Source of the DNA: Tepidamorphaceae bacterium
GTDB lineage: Bacteria; Pseudomonadota; Alphaproteobacteria; Rhizobiales; JAKSCL01
Assembly: GCA_028289445.1 (NCBI GenBank)
Contig: JANQPO010000020.1
Coordinates: 1-64,000 of the forward strand
Reading direction: 5' to 3'
DNA length: 64,000 bases
Position numbers and translations under genes: made by a program. The notes under the pieces are model-generated. The model saw only the letters and a program-made list of their open reading frames with translations. It had not been told where the DNA came from and made no database searches. Of this stretch, positions 8,616 through 63,585 are shown one piece after another; positions within the stretch are counted from its first letter, which is position 1; each line of letters begins with the position of its first letter.

Positions 8616-10877
8616 TCAGACAGGAATGTCGTTCTGGCGGGCAAAGTCGAGGAGCCGCGATCGGAGCGAGCCTGTGCCCGCGTCCTTCATCAGATCGGCC
8701 ATCTCGGCCTGCAACACGTCAATGTTCGTTTCCCGCACCATGGCCTTGACCGGTGCCACCGCCGCCGGCGTCATTGAAATCGACCGGTAGCCGAGACCGA
8801 TCAATGCCATGGCCTCCAGCGGACGGCTTGCCATTTCGCCACACAAGGTCACCGGAACGTTCGTCGCATCAGCCTTTTCGACAATGTTGGCCAATGCCCG
8901 CAGAACCGAAATGGACAGCGTATCGAACCGGGCATTGAGCCGTGGATTGCCACGGTCGGCGGCAAACATGAACTGAACCAGATCGTTCGATCCGACCGAG
9001 ATGAAGTCCACCTCCTCAAGCAGTGCATCCAATTCGAACAACACCGCCGGCACTTCGATCATCGCGCCCAGCGTAACCGTCTCGGGAAGCGCATAGCCGT
9101 GGTGGACTAAGTAAGCCTTCTCGCGTTCGATCACCGCTCGAGCGTCGCGAAACTCAGTGACATCCGACACCATGGGAAACATCAGTCTGAGATCGCGCTT
9201 CGCGGCGGCGCGCATCAGCGCCCGCGCCTGAATGCGAAGCAGACCCGGCCGGTCGAGCGCCAAGCGGATCGCGCGCCAGCCAAGCGCCGGGTTCTCTTCG
9301 CGCGGTGACCGCAGATAGGGCAGGACCTTATCACCGCCGACATCGAGCGAGCGAAAGGTTACGGGCCGGCCCGCCGCGACGTCGAGTACCTGCGCATAGA
9401 CCCGTTCCTGCTCGCGCACGCGCGGCAGGTTGGTCGCCAGCATGAATTGCAGTTCGGTGCGAAACAGACCTATGCCGTCGGCGCCGGATTCCCGCAAATG
9501 CGGCAGGTCGACCAGAAGGCCGGCATTGACCAGGAGCGCCACCGGCGTCCCGTCTTTTGAGATCGCGGGCAGATCGCGGTCTTTGTCGTATTGCGCCTGC
9601 CGGCGAGCGCGGAAACGAACTTTTTCGACATAGGCCGCTTCGACGTCGGCGGCCGGGCGGATGTGAACATCCCCGGTTTGGCCATCGACGATGATCGGGT
9701 CCGACTCGTCAATCAGATCGAGCGCGCGCTCGATCTGCCCAACCGCCGCGATACCGAGTGCCTTGGCGACAACCGCCACATGGCTGGTCGCGCTTCCCTC
9801 TTCCAACACGAGACCGCGAATGCGCTCCCGGTCATAGTCAAGAAGCTCCGCCGGACCCATGGTGCGCGCGATGATGATGGAGTCCTTCGGCAAGTCCGAA
9901 CGTGAAACGTTCGGAGCACCGACCAGTTCGCGCTGCAGCCGGTTGCCCAAGTCGTCGAGATCGTGCAGGCGCTCTCGGAGATAGGGGTCAGTCTGGCGCA
10001 TCATCCGGGCGCGATAGTCGTTCTGCACGCGTTCCACGGCCGCTTCCGCCGTAAGCCCCGTCGACACGGCCTCGCGCAGGCGTTTGGTCCACCCTCTGTC
10101 GTGAGCGAACATGCGATAGGCATCGAGCACATCGCGATGTTCGCCGGCTCCGGCCATGTCGCCACGCGCCAGCATCGAATCGATTGAGGCGCGCAGTCGG
10201 TCAAGCGCCTCGCCGAGCCGCTTCTGCTCGTATTCGACATCCTCGGCAATCAGATTTCGGACAACGATACGCGGCTCGTGAAAGACGGCATGACCGAGCC
10301 CCAGCGCGTCCGACAGCGCGGCGCCGGTGAGATGATGCGACCGTAAATGCCGGATATCGATGTCGGGCGCTGCATCGATATCCAGTTCTCCCGACGCAAA
10401 CAGTTCGGCAACCATCATCGCCGTTGTCTGCAGCGCTTCGACTTCTTCTTCCGAGTAGGTCCGTTTGACCCGGTTTTGAACAACCAGGACACCCAGCGTG
10501 TGGCCACCGCGCAGAATCGGCACGCCAAGGAAGGACTGATAGATTTCCTCTCCGGTTTCCGGAAGATAGGCGAAGGACGGATGCTCCTGCGCATTCGGCA
10601 GGTTCAGCGGTTCGGCTAGTTCCGCGATCAAGCCGACGAGGCCCTTGCCGATCCGAAGCTTGGAGGTGTGGACCGCCTCTTGCTTCAGACCTTGCGTCGC
10701 GCACAGTTCCAGCACGCCATGCTCGCGCAGCACATAAACCGAACAGACCTCGGCCACCATGTTGGCGGCGATCAGAACAACGATCTTGTCCAGACGCTCC
10801 TGTGCGTCGACCGGCTCGGCCATAACCTCGCGCAATCGGCGCAGCAAAAGCCACGGTCCGGGATGGCCGCCTCGCAT
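8616..10877 (-). CDS. ptsP: Phosphoenolpyruvate-protein phosphotransferase PtsP (enzyme I-Ntr)
   Basis: First phosphotransferase of the nitrogen-related PTS: it takes phosphate from PEP and passes it to NPr, which signals to EIIA-Ntr. The 753-aa protein has an N-terminal GAF sensor domain (about 20-160), the PEP-utilising swivel domain with active-site histidine in EEGSATSHVAVVAKALG, and the C-terminal barrel ending with TLCGEMASRP. The GAF domain separates it from sugar-PTS enzyme I. The ATG at 10877 has AGGA upstream. Partner genes (NPr, EIIA-Ntr) are not in this window. Confidence 0.97.
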   Translation of the reverse strand: MRGGHPGPWLLLRRLREVMAEPVDAQERLDKIVVLIAANMVAEVCSVYVLREHGVLELCATQGLKQEAVHTSKLRIGKGLVGLIAELAEPLNLPNAQEHPSFAYLPETGEEIYQSFLGVPILRGGHTLGVLVVQNRVKRTYSEEEVEALQTTAMMVAELFASGELDIDAAPDIDIRHLRSHHLTGAALSDALGLGHAVFHEPRIVVRNLIAEDVEYEQKRLGEALDRLRASIDSMLARGDMAGAGEHRDVLDAYRMFAHDRGWTKRLREAVSTGLTAEAAVERVQNDYRARMMRQTDPYLRERLHDLDDLGNRLQRELVGAPNVSRSDLPKDSIIIARTMGPAELLDYDRERIRGLVLEEGSATSHVAVVAKALGIAAVGQIERALDLIDESDPIIVDGQTGDVHIRPAADVEAAYVEKVRFRARRQAQYDKDRDLPAISKDGTPVALLVNAGLLVDLPHLRESGADGIGLFRTELQFMLATNLPRVREQERVYAQVLDVAAGRPVTFRSLDVGGDKVLPYLRSPREENPALGWRAIRLALDRPGLLRIQARALMRAAAKRDLRLMFPMVSDVTEFRDARAVIEREKAYLVHHGYALPETVTLGAMIEVPAVLFELDALLEEVDFISVGSNDLVQFMFAADRGNPRLNARFDTLSISVLRALANIVEKADATNVPVTLCGEMASRPLEAMALIGLGYRSISMTPAAVAPVKAMVRETNIDVLQAEMADLMKDAGTGSLRSRLLDFARQNDIPV

Positions 10878-61165: not shown

Positions 61166-61720
61166 ATGAGGCAAGCGGACACGGTGAATGACACACGCTG
61201 GGTGTTCGGCTACGGCTCGCTGATGTGGCGGCCGGGATTCGCGCATACCGATCGCCAGCCGGCGCATCTGACCGGTCTGCACCGCTCTTTGTGCGTCTAT
61301 TCCTACGTCCATCGCGGCACACCGGACCGGCCGGGCCTGGTTCTTGGATTGAATCATGGCGGTGCGTGTCGCGGCGTCGCGTTCAAGGTGACCGACGCCG
61401 ACTGGCCGGACGTGGTCGCCTATCTGCGCGACCGGGAACAAGTCACCAATGTCTACCTGGAACGCGTGCGGCCGATCCGGGTCGGTGCCGACGGCGACAG
61501 CCGCGTCGTCAAGGCGCTGTGTTATGTCGTCGATCGCCGGCATGAACAGTATGCCGGCGACCTGTCGCTTGAAACGATGCTGGACATGATCCCGGTCAGC
61601 ACCGGGCGATCGGGACCGAACACCGAGTATGTGCTGAACACGGTGGCGCATTTGGAGGAAATCGGCGTCGCCGACACGAAGCTCTACGCGCTCGCGCGGC
61701 GACTGAGAGACCTGAGCTGA
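61166..61720 (+). CDS. Gamma-glutamylcyclotransferase, ChaC type
   Basis: Enzyme of 184 aa predicted to split glutathione into 5-oxoproline and Cys-Gly. The hallmark substrate loop VFGYGSLMWRPGF occurs at residues 13-25, followed by a ChaC-like GACRGVAFKVTDADWPDVVAYLRDRE. A GTG at 61184 is an alternative start. Its stop lies six bases from the stop of the convergent SOS-type gene. Confidence 0.92.
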   Translation: MRQADTVNDTRWVFGYGSLMWRPGFAHTDRQPAHLTGLHRSLCVYSYVHRGTPDRPGLVLGLNHGGACRGVAFKVTDADWPDVVAYLRDREQVTNVYLERVRPIRVGADGDSRVVKALCYVVDRRHEQYAGDLSLETMLDMIPVSTGRSGPNTEYVLNTVAHLEEIGVADTKLYALARRLRDLS

Positions 61721-61726
61721 TAAGGT

Positions 61727-62113
61727 CTAGGCGGCCAACCGTATAGCTGCCGGTTCGTCCATCGCTCGATCGAAGGCCTCTGCCACCTCGCGCCGCTCAG
61801 TGGCTGATGGTGCCACCGCATGTACGTGCACCTCGACGTTCGGCTGGCGAAGCGCGACACGCACCGTTTCGTAAAACGTAAAGGCACCTGGAAACGGGCC
61901 TGTTTCACCGACCCAGATCGGCGTGCGAACGTCCCCGTCAACGACGACCACCAGCGCGACGGAATCACACAGATCGATCGCATCGTCTGGACGAAGAACC
62001 GAAACCACGTAGTGCGACCCATCCGGCAGCGTCCAATAGCCATGCTCGGGCACGTGCTTGGCGCCGGCTAAAAACCGCAAACGTTCTGTGGTTTTCGAAG
62101 TCGAGTAGTACAT
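61727..62113 (-). CDS. Unknown protein under a LexA-overlapped promoter
   Basis: I cannot name this 128-aa protein. It has no signal peptide or membrane segment. The middle and end read TPIWVGETGPF..., then VEVHVHAVAPSATERREVAEAFDRAMDEP. The VGETG and His-Val-His/basic-helix layout loosely recalls GIY-YIG nuclease domains, but the leading GIY-like strand and catalytic arginine are not identifiable, so this is speculation. GGAG sits a few bases upstream of the ATG. The promoter (62136-62164) has its -10 inside a LexA box, so DNA-damage induction is likely. Confidence 0.82.
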   Translation of the reverse strand: MYYSTSKTTERLRFLAGAKHVPEHGYWTLPDGSHYVVSVLRPDDAIDLCDSVALVVVVDGDVRTPIWVGETGPFPGAFTFYETVRVALRQPNVEVHVHAVAPSATERREVAEAFDRAMDEPAAIRLAA

Positions 62114-62130
62114 GAGGTCTCCACAAACGT

Positions 62131-62145
62131 GAACAAAAGTAGAAC
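62131..62145 (-). promoter_or_regulatory. LexA (SOS) box
   Basis: On the minus strand, GTTC-TACTTTT-GTTC is an exact alphaproteobacterial LexA operator (GTTC-N7-GTTC). Its middle contains the -10 hexamer TACTTT. It ends 17 bases before the ATG at 62113. Confidence 0.85.
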
Positions 62146-62164
62146 AAACTGATGAATTTGTCAA
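62136..62164 (-). promoter_or_regulatory. Sigma70 promoter overlapped by the LexA box
   Basis: A consensus -35 TTGACA (62159-62164) is separated by exactly 17 bases from -10 TACTTT (62136-62141) on the minus strand. LexA binding would cover the -10. The predicted leader is about 15 bases with a GGAG ribosome site. Confidence 0.82.
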
Positions 62165-62243: not shown

Positions 62244-63023
62244 TCAAGCGGTTTGAGCGTCGGTCGCTGTACTGGGCAACATCGCGTTGCTCGCCGTCTC
62301 GATGTCCGATTCAAGCCGCTGCATGAACGCGCGCCGGGCGAGGCCAGGCTCAATAGGCGGAAGGATGTGAACCTGGACGGTGCCAGGGTAGCGCAGCCAG
62401 CTTCTCCGTGGCCAATAGAGGCCGGAGTTGAGCGCGATTGGCACACAGGGGCACGCGCAGGCCGCGTAGAGATTGGCGACGCCAGGCTTGTAATCGGGCG
62501 CAGCACCCGGTGTGCGCCTCGTACCCTCCGGGAAGATCACGATCTGCCGGCCATCGTTGATCGCATCTTGCGCCTCGCGCGTGATCGCCTTCAACGCCTT
62601 CATGCCGGCTGCGCGGTCGACAGAGATCATTCCGAATTTCATGAGGTACCAGCCGAACAGCGGGATGCGGGTGAGCTGCTTCTTCAAAATGAAGGTCGGA
62701 TAGTCGAAGAGCGGCACAAGAGCCAACGTCTCCCAGGCCGATTGATGCTTCGAGGCGGCGAGATAGCCGCCCGCCGGCAGGTTCTCCAGACCGCGAATGT
62801 TGAAGTCGATACCGACGATCAGTTTCGCAAGCCAGATCGTCGACCTGCACCAGGTCTTTACGACGACGAAGAGGGGTCGCGCGGGCAGCACAAACAACGG
62901 GACGGACACCAGCAAGAAGAGCAGTGTGTTCACATAGAACGCGACGTTGAACACGGTCGAGCGAACGACCACGCCGATGCCTGCCCTTATCTCCAACTGG
63001 CCTTCGACCTCAACCCGTGTCAT
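62244..63023 (-). CDS. plsC: 1-acyl-sn-glycerol-3-phosphate acyltransferase PlsC
   Basis: Membrane acyltransferase of 259 aa that makes phosphatidic acid from lysophosphatidate. Motif I is SKHQSAWETLAL (HX4E here, HX4D in the broad family; the Glu form is common in Hyphomicrobiales as I recall), and motif III is FPEGTRRTPGA. One hydrophobic segment (NTLLFLLVSVPLFVLP) anchors it. The ATG at 63023 overlaps the end of ydcF by 14 bases. It closes an ftsX-ydcF-plsC run on this strand. Confidence 0.93.
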   Translation of the reverse strand: MTRVEVEGQLEIRAGIGVVVRSTVFNVAFYVNTLLFLLVSVPLFVLPARPLFVVVKTWCRSTIWLAKLIVGIDFNIRGLENLPAGGYLAASKHQSAWETLALVPLFDYPTFILKKQLTRIPLFGWYLMKFGMISVDRAAGMKALKAITREAQDAINDGRQIVIFPEGTRRTPGAAPDYKPGVANLYAACACPCVPIALNSGLYWPRRSWLRYPGTVQVHILPPIEPGLARRAFMQRLESDIETASNAMLPSTATDAQTA

Positions 63024-63585
63024 TGACCCGGTTTCTGACCAGCGCGAAGACATATTTCGCATATTCGGAGAAATAAACACGACCGGCCTGGGGATTGCGC
63101 CACCAGACGTGGTCGCCGGATACGGGTACCGGATAGGCGACGAGGTCATATCCCTGCATCGCGCGCTCGAACTCCATTATGCTGCGCGGCATATGGTAGC
63201 TCGATGTCACGACGACCAGGCGTTGGAAGTCATTCTGCTCACTCCAGATGCGTGCTTGGACGGCATTTCCGATTGTGTCGAGCGCCTCACGATCGATATC
63301 CACACAGCATGAAAAGAGTTCGGCATCGCCGTTGACCACCGCAATGATATCCTCACGCGTCGTCGCCTCGAACACGCCGGTGATGAGCAAACGTTCGCCG
63401 CGACCGTGCTTGAGAAGATCGAGACCGACGGCGATACGGTCCGGTGCGCCGGTCAGAACGATGATGCCGTCGCCGGTGATCGTGTCGGTGGCGATACTCG
63501 CGGTCAGTTGCCGGGTGAAGTGCAAAAAACCACCGATATAGATCGCCACGCCAATCGCCGCGAGCACAAGAAACCGTCGAATCAT
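63010..63585 (-). CDS. YdcF family protein (DUF218)
   Basis: Protein of 191 aa with an N-terminal membrane segment (FLVLAAIGVAIYIGGFL) and a DUF218 domain (GIIVLTGAPDRIAVGLDLLKHGRGERLLITGVFEATT, VVVTSSYHMPRSIMEFERAM). DUF218 proteins such as SanA/YdcF affect envelope properties; the biochemical role is uncertain. The ATG at 63585 is preferred to one at 63603. It lies between ftsX and plsC, as in related genomes. Confidence 0.92.
   Translation of the reverse strand: MIRRFLVLAAIGVAIYIGGFLHFTRQLTASIATDTITGDGIIVLTGAPDRIAVGLDLLKHGRGERLLITGVFEATTREDIIAVVNGDAELFSCCVDIDREALDTIGNAVQARIWSEQNDFQRLVVVTSSYHMPRSIMEFERAMQGYDLVAYPVPVSGDHVWWRNPQAGRVYFSEYAKYVFALVRNRVNDTG

Follow-up and report, generated by a model that had tools for sequence, protein, structure and literature searches.

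The 64,000-nucleotide stretch of Tepidamorphaceae DNA analysed here (the window) carries a 128-aa gene behind an SOS-type promoter. Taken as a whole, it is moderately probable that the product is a LexA-repressed, catalytically degenerate protein of the GIY-YIG fold that probably assists DNA repair without cutting. The regulatory part of this reading, the control of the gene by LexA in the window genome, is very probable judging from the DNA sequence.

Promoter, operator and gene

The features of the locus are listed in Table 1. The initial annotation had described a TTGACA-N17-TACTTT promoter with an exact GTTC-N7-GTTC lying across the -10, and this was confirmed base by base; the short GGAG leader and the 128-aa frame were likewise re-read from the sequence as claimed. 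The start codon ATG occupies positions 62113-62111, with the GGAG shortly 5' of it, and the stop codon TAG positions 61729-61727 of the minus strand. Since the upstream plsC gene is co-directional and the chaC gene is convergent, the box can act on the 128-aa gene only. The product had been called unassignable, and it indeed matches no Pfam, NCBIfam or PHROG model; DUF2563 and similar matches obtained from Pfam, NCBIfam and PHROGs with the single protein were sub-threshold noise and were rejected.

Table 1. Coordinates of the promoter, the operator, the 128-aa gene and its neighbours in the window
Feature	Position	Strand	Basis
-35 hexamer TTGACA	62159..62164	-	read from sequence
-10 hexamer TACTTT, within operator	62136..62141	-	read from sequence; spacer 17
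Candidate LexA operator GTTCTACTTTTGTTC, exact GTTC-N7-GTTC over -10	62131..62145	-	motif match, matrix rank, conservation
Operator-to-start-codon stretch, 17 bases, contains GGAG	62114..62130	-	read from sequence
128-aa gene, predicted degenerate GIY-YIG fold protein, stop included	61727..62113	-	ORF, homologues, model, alignment
N-terminal beta hairpin, codons 23-40, conserved W27, G32, Y35	61994..62047	-	model and family alignment
ChaC gamma-glutamylcyclotransferase, convergent neighbour, syntenic marker	61166..61720	+	Pfam PF04752, 4e-45
PlsC-type acyltransferase, upstream neighbour, syntenic marker	62244..63149	-	Pfam PF01553, 1.8e-19

Comparison of the operator with other sites in the genome

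GTTC-N7-GTTC is the alpha-proteobacterial LexA operator (PMC3323433). The bare motif occurs 117 times genome-wide versus 124 times for the reversed control, and six exact matches lie in the window versus 2.4 expected. Because the genome-wide copy number is at chance level, the bare motif proves little, and its count was dropped as evidence. The window copies at 10020, 24414, 31778, 40333 and 41022 have GC-richer cores and low scores and appear chance-like.

The DNA around 19 genomic copies, mostly with AT-rich cores, was read. Boxes were found to precede lexA, uvrA/ssb, imuA, dnaE, comM/yifB and a tag-like glycosylase gene, as identified with NCBIfam (the match for imuA being weak), and an SRAP-type gene recognised by eye only. 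The genome encodes LexA (TIGR00498, 7.7e-56), whose own gene has the box GTTCTACTTGTGTTC upstream, and the uvrA/ssb operator reads GTTCTACTTATGTTC; the window operator GTTCTACTTTTGTTC resembles both. A matrix was built from the seven boxes of the genome's other SOS genes (lexA, uvrA/ssb, imuA, dnaE, comM/yifB, tag and SRAP), and the window site ranks first among the 100 exact copies listed and scored, out of the 117 in the genome. The site is above chance in its AT-rich core, its overlap with the promoter and its conservation. The earlier statement that the promoter geometry and operator placement are far stronger than a chance motif is borne out in these three properties and in the rank among the listed copies; the bare motif by itself is at chance level.

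The alpha-proteobacterial LexA regulon (recA, lexA, uvrA, imuA-imuB-dnaE2, tag, comM and dnaE) has the same kind of AT-rich operator as the window gene. The published comparison of LexA in alpha-Proteobacteria covered Rhizobiaceae, Brucellaceae and Rhodobacteraceae. The gene was unmentioned in the literature on this regulon that was searched, and our literature search found no paper linking the gene, LexA and GIY-YIG.

Other AT-rich sites of the genome also scored well. The box GTTCTATTTTCGTTC (G000:C3:426816; locus L025, 1001-1015) is a high-scoring LexA-type box; about 70 bp downstream of it begins a frame for a small protein that is putatively exported, and a second frame runs divergently. 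Neither is a known SOS gene. In addition, the AT-rich GTTC-N7-GTTC sites G000:C9:152482, C10:102101 and C18:323223 (L030, L031 and L034) score among the SOS boxes.

Distribution of the family and conservation of the box

With the single 128-aa query, 13 distant relatives were found in 150 genomes. A profile made from these 13 relatives detected the family in 225 of 397 genomes sampled within the window's order, and in a class-wide sample the family was present in 8 of 385 genomes. For the analysis of the upstream regions, 60 homologous loci were sampled, about one per genus (54 genera), and a box was counted only within 200 bp 5' of the conserved core and in the direction of the gene. GTTC-N7-GTTC was found upstream in 39 of the 60 loci and in 35 of the 54 genera, against 0.40 expected from the remainder of the same loci; the control spacings N5, N6, N8 and N9 and the reversed motif each gave 0/60. 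The consensus of the box among the homologues is GTTCTA-N-N-TTTGTTC, and a TTGAC-type -35 sits 18-20 bp upstream of the box in most of the box-bearing ones. In roughly half of the loci with a box, only 1-2 bp separate it from the start codon (17 bases in the window), which suggests that transcripts of those genes may be leaderless. In two loci of genus g22 (L125 and L131), a second repeat GAACAAAAAATGAAC lies about 29 bp past the first box, near the coding start, suggesting a possible double operator.

The initial annotation had named orthologues with the gene and without the box as an observation that would speak against it. The outcome is mixed, the exact box being present in 39 and absent in 21 of the 60 homologues. 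Thirteen of the boxless loci fall in one tree group of 16 rows, and the remainder are scattered. The boxless homologues weaken the universality of the LexA box, yet they leave the case in the window genome intact. Meanwhile, the reading of the promoter as SOS-type gains from an operator that is kept before homologues across the order and is of the same kind as those of lexA and uvrA/ssb in this genome. It might be argued that the box is idle, with the GTTC repeats a chance occurrence and the gene driven mainly by read-through from plsC or by a promoter independent of LexA, as the chance-level frequency of the bare motif and the homologues without a box would allow; however, the fixed geometry to the -35 in the 39 loci, the empty controls and the top score of the window site among the listed genomic copies make this explanation very improbable.

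Predicted fold and ancestry of the 128-aa protein

Sequence searches of the PDB gave no match. AlphaFold models made with the family alignment were confident: the window protein reached pLDDT 84.4 and pTM 0.77, and a homologue (L128) 84.6 and 0.75. The window model is globular alpha/beta and has no membrane segment. Foldseek alone returned nothing significant for either model, and the Foldseek candidates were re-aligned with a second structural aligner, so that the fold call rests on this aligner together with the sequence chain described below. The GIY-YIG domain of UvrC (1yd4) aligned to the window model with Z 5.2 (3.0 A over 71 residues) and to the L128 model with Z 5.9 (2.1 A over 70). 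The N-domain of a plant Grx (GrxS16, 2lwf), which we take to have the GIY-YIG fold, gave Z 6.4 and 6.2, respectively, T4 EndoII 4.9 and 4.7, and R.Eco29kI 4.1 with the L128 model only. GIY-YIG chains occupy ranks 1-8 for L128. T4 EndoII, R.Eco29kI and the GrxS16 N-domain are alike in the fold found by the structural aligner; however, they belong to other biological contexts and have no sequence similarity to the window protein, and the first two are active nucleases, unlike the predicted non-cutting protein. Structural Z scores of 5-6 are modest and would be weak if alone.

A route through sequence, independent of the structural one, leads to the same superfamily. Four relatives, namely a Bradyrhizobium plasmid protein (WP_231146028, annotated as GIY-YIG nuclease family), its chromosomal relative and two further proteins, have the same N-terminal hairpin together with the complete GIY/YIG/R/H/E/N set (motif-intact relatives, including loci L154, L170 and L167). 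The SOS family and these relatives have the hairpin and the domain architecture in common and align by HHalign at 99.5% (E 9e-23, 99 columns), with a score of 130 versus at most 12.3 for permuted controls. The motif-intact relatives in turn align to ordinary GIY-YIG proteins at 82%, with a score of 34 versus a control maximum of 16. The direct profile comparison between the SOS family and ordinary GIY-YIG proteins gave noise; homology to the superfamily is thus detectable via the motif-intact intermediates only, with no direct Pfam match. The two groups differ in that the motif-intact relatives keep Y, Y, R, H, E and N, most of which the SOS family has lost, and in that no LexA box was found close to the start of the motif-intact relatives, whereas the box is typical of the SOS family. 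One motif-intact relative (L133, 3992-4357; NZ_CP088103.1) lies on a conjugative Bradyrhizobium plasmid, flanked by transposase and integrase genes. Its W-G-SG hairpin is encoded in frame upstream of the annotated start, which has therefore probably been placed too far downstream.

VGETG stands where the YIG motif would be, and VHVHAV corresponds to the strand that follows the first helix in this fold. The degenerate GIY-YIG layout that had been loosely suggested from these two segments is supported by two predicted structures and by the profile alignment to the motif-intact relatives; structure prediction and profile comparison, both proposed as checks, placed GIY-YIG domains at the top and returned the motif-intact relatives. 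From the models and the alignments together, it is highly likely that the window protein has the GIY-YIG fold.

Loss of the active site

An active GIY-YIG nuclease is expected to have the GIY and YIG tyrosines and the Arg, His, Glu and Asn residues. In the window protein these six catalytic positions read A, W, A, Y, A and A, none of the expected residues being kept. Of the 39 box-bearing members, one retains the YIG tyrosine, five the arginine, two the histidine and five the glutamate; asparagine is outside the seven commonest letters at its position. The family does retain the hairpin (W, G, S-G and Y), the YIG glycine, a strand EVHVHLLA that includes a near-invariant His and, in its final helix, an Asp-Leu. 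H98 (58/60) and an aspartate near the C-terminal helix (60/60) are near-invariant. The window protein lacks this aspartate at the aligned position, departs from the consensus at the near-invariant positions L29, D31 and A113, and lies on one of the longest branches of the tree (2.04).

The 128-aa protein is likely to be devoid of nuclease activity. That the protein is still a nuclease, induced in the SOS response to make incisions as Cho does in E. coli and using replacement residues for the chemistry, appears unlikely: the fold matches the UvrC domain, and H98 and the C-terminal aspartate could form a new site, but the motif tyrosines and the Arg, His, Glu and Asn are mostly gone, and the aspartate is missing from the window protein itself. 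Compared with the N-terminal GIY-YIG domain of UvrC and with Cho, the protein is alike in the predicted fold (Z 5-6 for UvrC) and in the link to DNA damage; it differs in the absence of catalytic residues, in the additional N-terminal WxGxSGxxY hairpin, in consisting of a single domain and in a sequence that is not closely similar.

Chromosomal position

The chaC gene is downstream and convergent in at least 41 of the 60 homologous loci, and plsC was found at no fewer than 25, mostly upstream; both counts are lower bounds given by flanks of 2.5 kb. The genes hisC, prephenate dehydrogenase, chaC, plsC, ydcF and ftsX follow one another as in a Sinorhizobium meliloti record (CP090106.1), which makes it probable that the order concerned is Hyphomicrobiales; a 16S search of the window genome returned no match. 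In the S. meliloti record a gap of only about 10 bp separates chaC from plsC (L187, 9965-9975), and the SOS gene is missing between them. No homologue was found in the phage records searched, and the plasmids searched yielded one motif-intact relative only, so there is no sign of a mobile element. The gene appears to be chromosomal and to have been inherited vertically, some lineages having lost it or never having had it.

The neighbourhood bears on a further possibility, a checkpoint protein that delays division during the SOS response, as SulA, SidA or YneA do in their hosts. Small SOS-induced proteins commonly delay division, and ftsX-ydcF-plsC adjoins the gene in the window and in many other loci. 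However, the globular alpha/beta model without a membrane segment is unlike SidA or YneA, and S. meliloti keeps the same neighbourhood without the gene; we therefore regard a checkpoint role as improbable.

Proposed role and implications

Repression by LexA and induction upon DNA damage are the established behaviour of the SOS system. In undamaged cells, LexA would sit on the GTTC-N7-GTTC over the -10 and block RNA polymerase; upon DNA damage, RecA would trigger the self-cleavage of LexA and the gene would be expressed, as the promoter sequence and its conservation imply. The product, a predicted GIY-YIG fold preceded by the WxGxSGxxY hairpin, has its ancestry in common with the relatives that keep GIY/YIG/R/H/E/N, and the alignment shows that it has lost these residues. 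Its function is most likely non-catalytic, the protein binding a repair partner or a particular DNA structure; during the SOS response it would thereby assist or regulate repair, possibly the nucleotide excision pathway. UvrC performs the 3' incision with the same GIY-YIG fold (PMC7835731), and Cho is related to the GIY-YIG domain of UvrC (PMC8307549); excision repair is therefore the first place to look. The repair role is read from regulation and fold only, and we see roughly an even chance that the protein is an accessory of repair and does not serve the SOS response in some other way. Extended to the lineage, the picture would be of an SOS family at one chromosomal position, mostly LexA-controlled, in which a GIY-YIG nuclease has turned into a non-cutting binder of DNA or of repair proteins; this stands at even odds in our judgement.

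SOS regulons are poorly known beyond a few model species. A conserved, putatively damage-controlled gene that occurs in more than half of the genomes sampled from this large order and has neither family name nor function is a well-defined target. If the reading is true, a LexA-controlled pseudo-nuclease would be an unusual finding that poses the question of what a non-cutting GIY-YIG fold does for DNA repair, and the order would have a repair or checkpoint component that is absent from standard SOS models.
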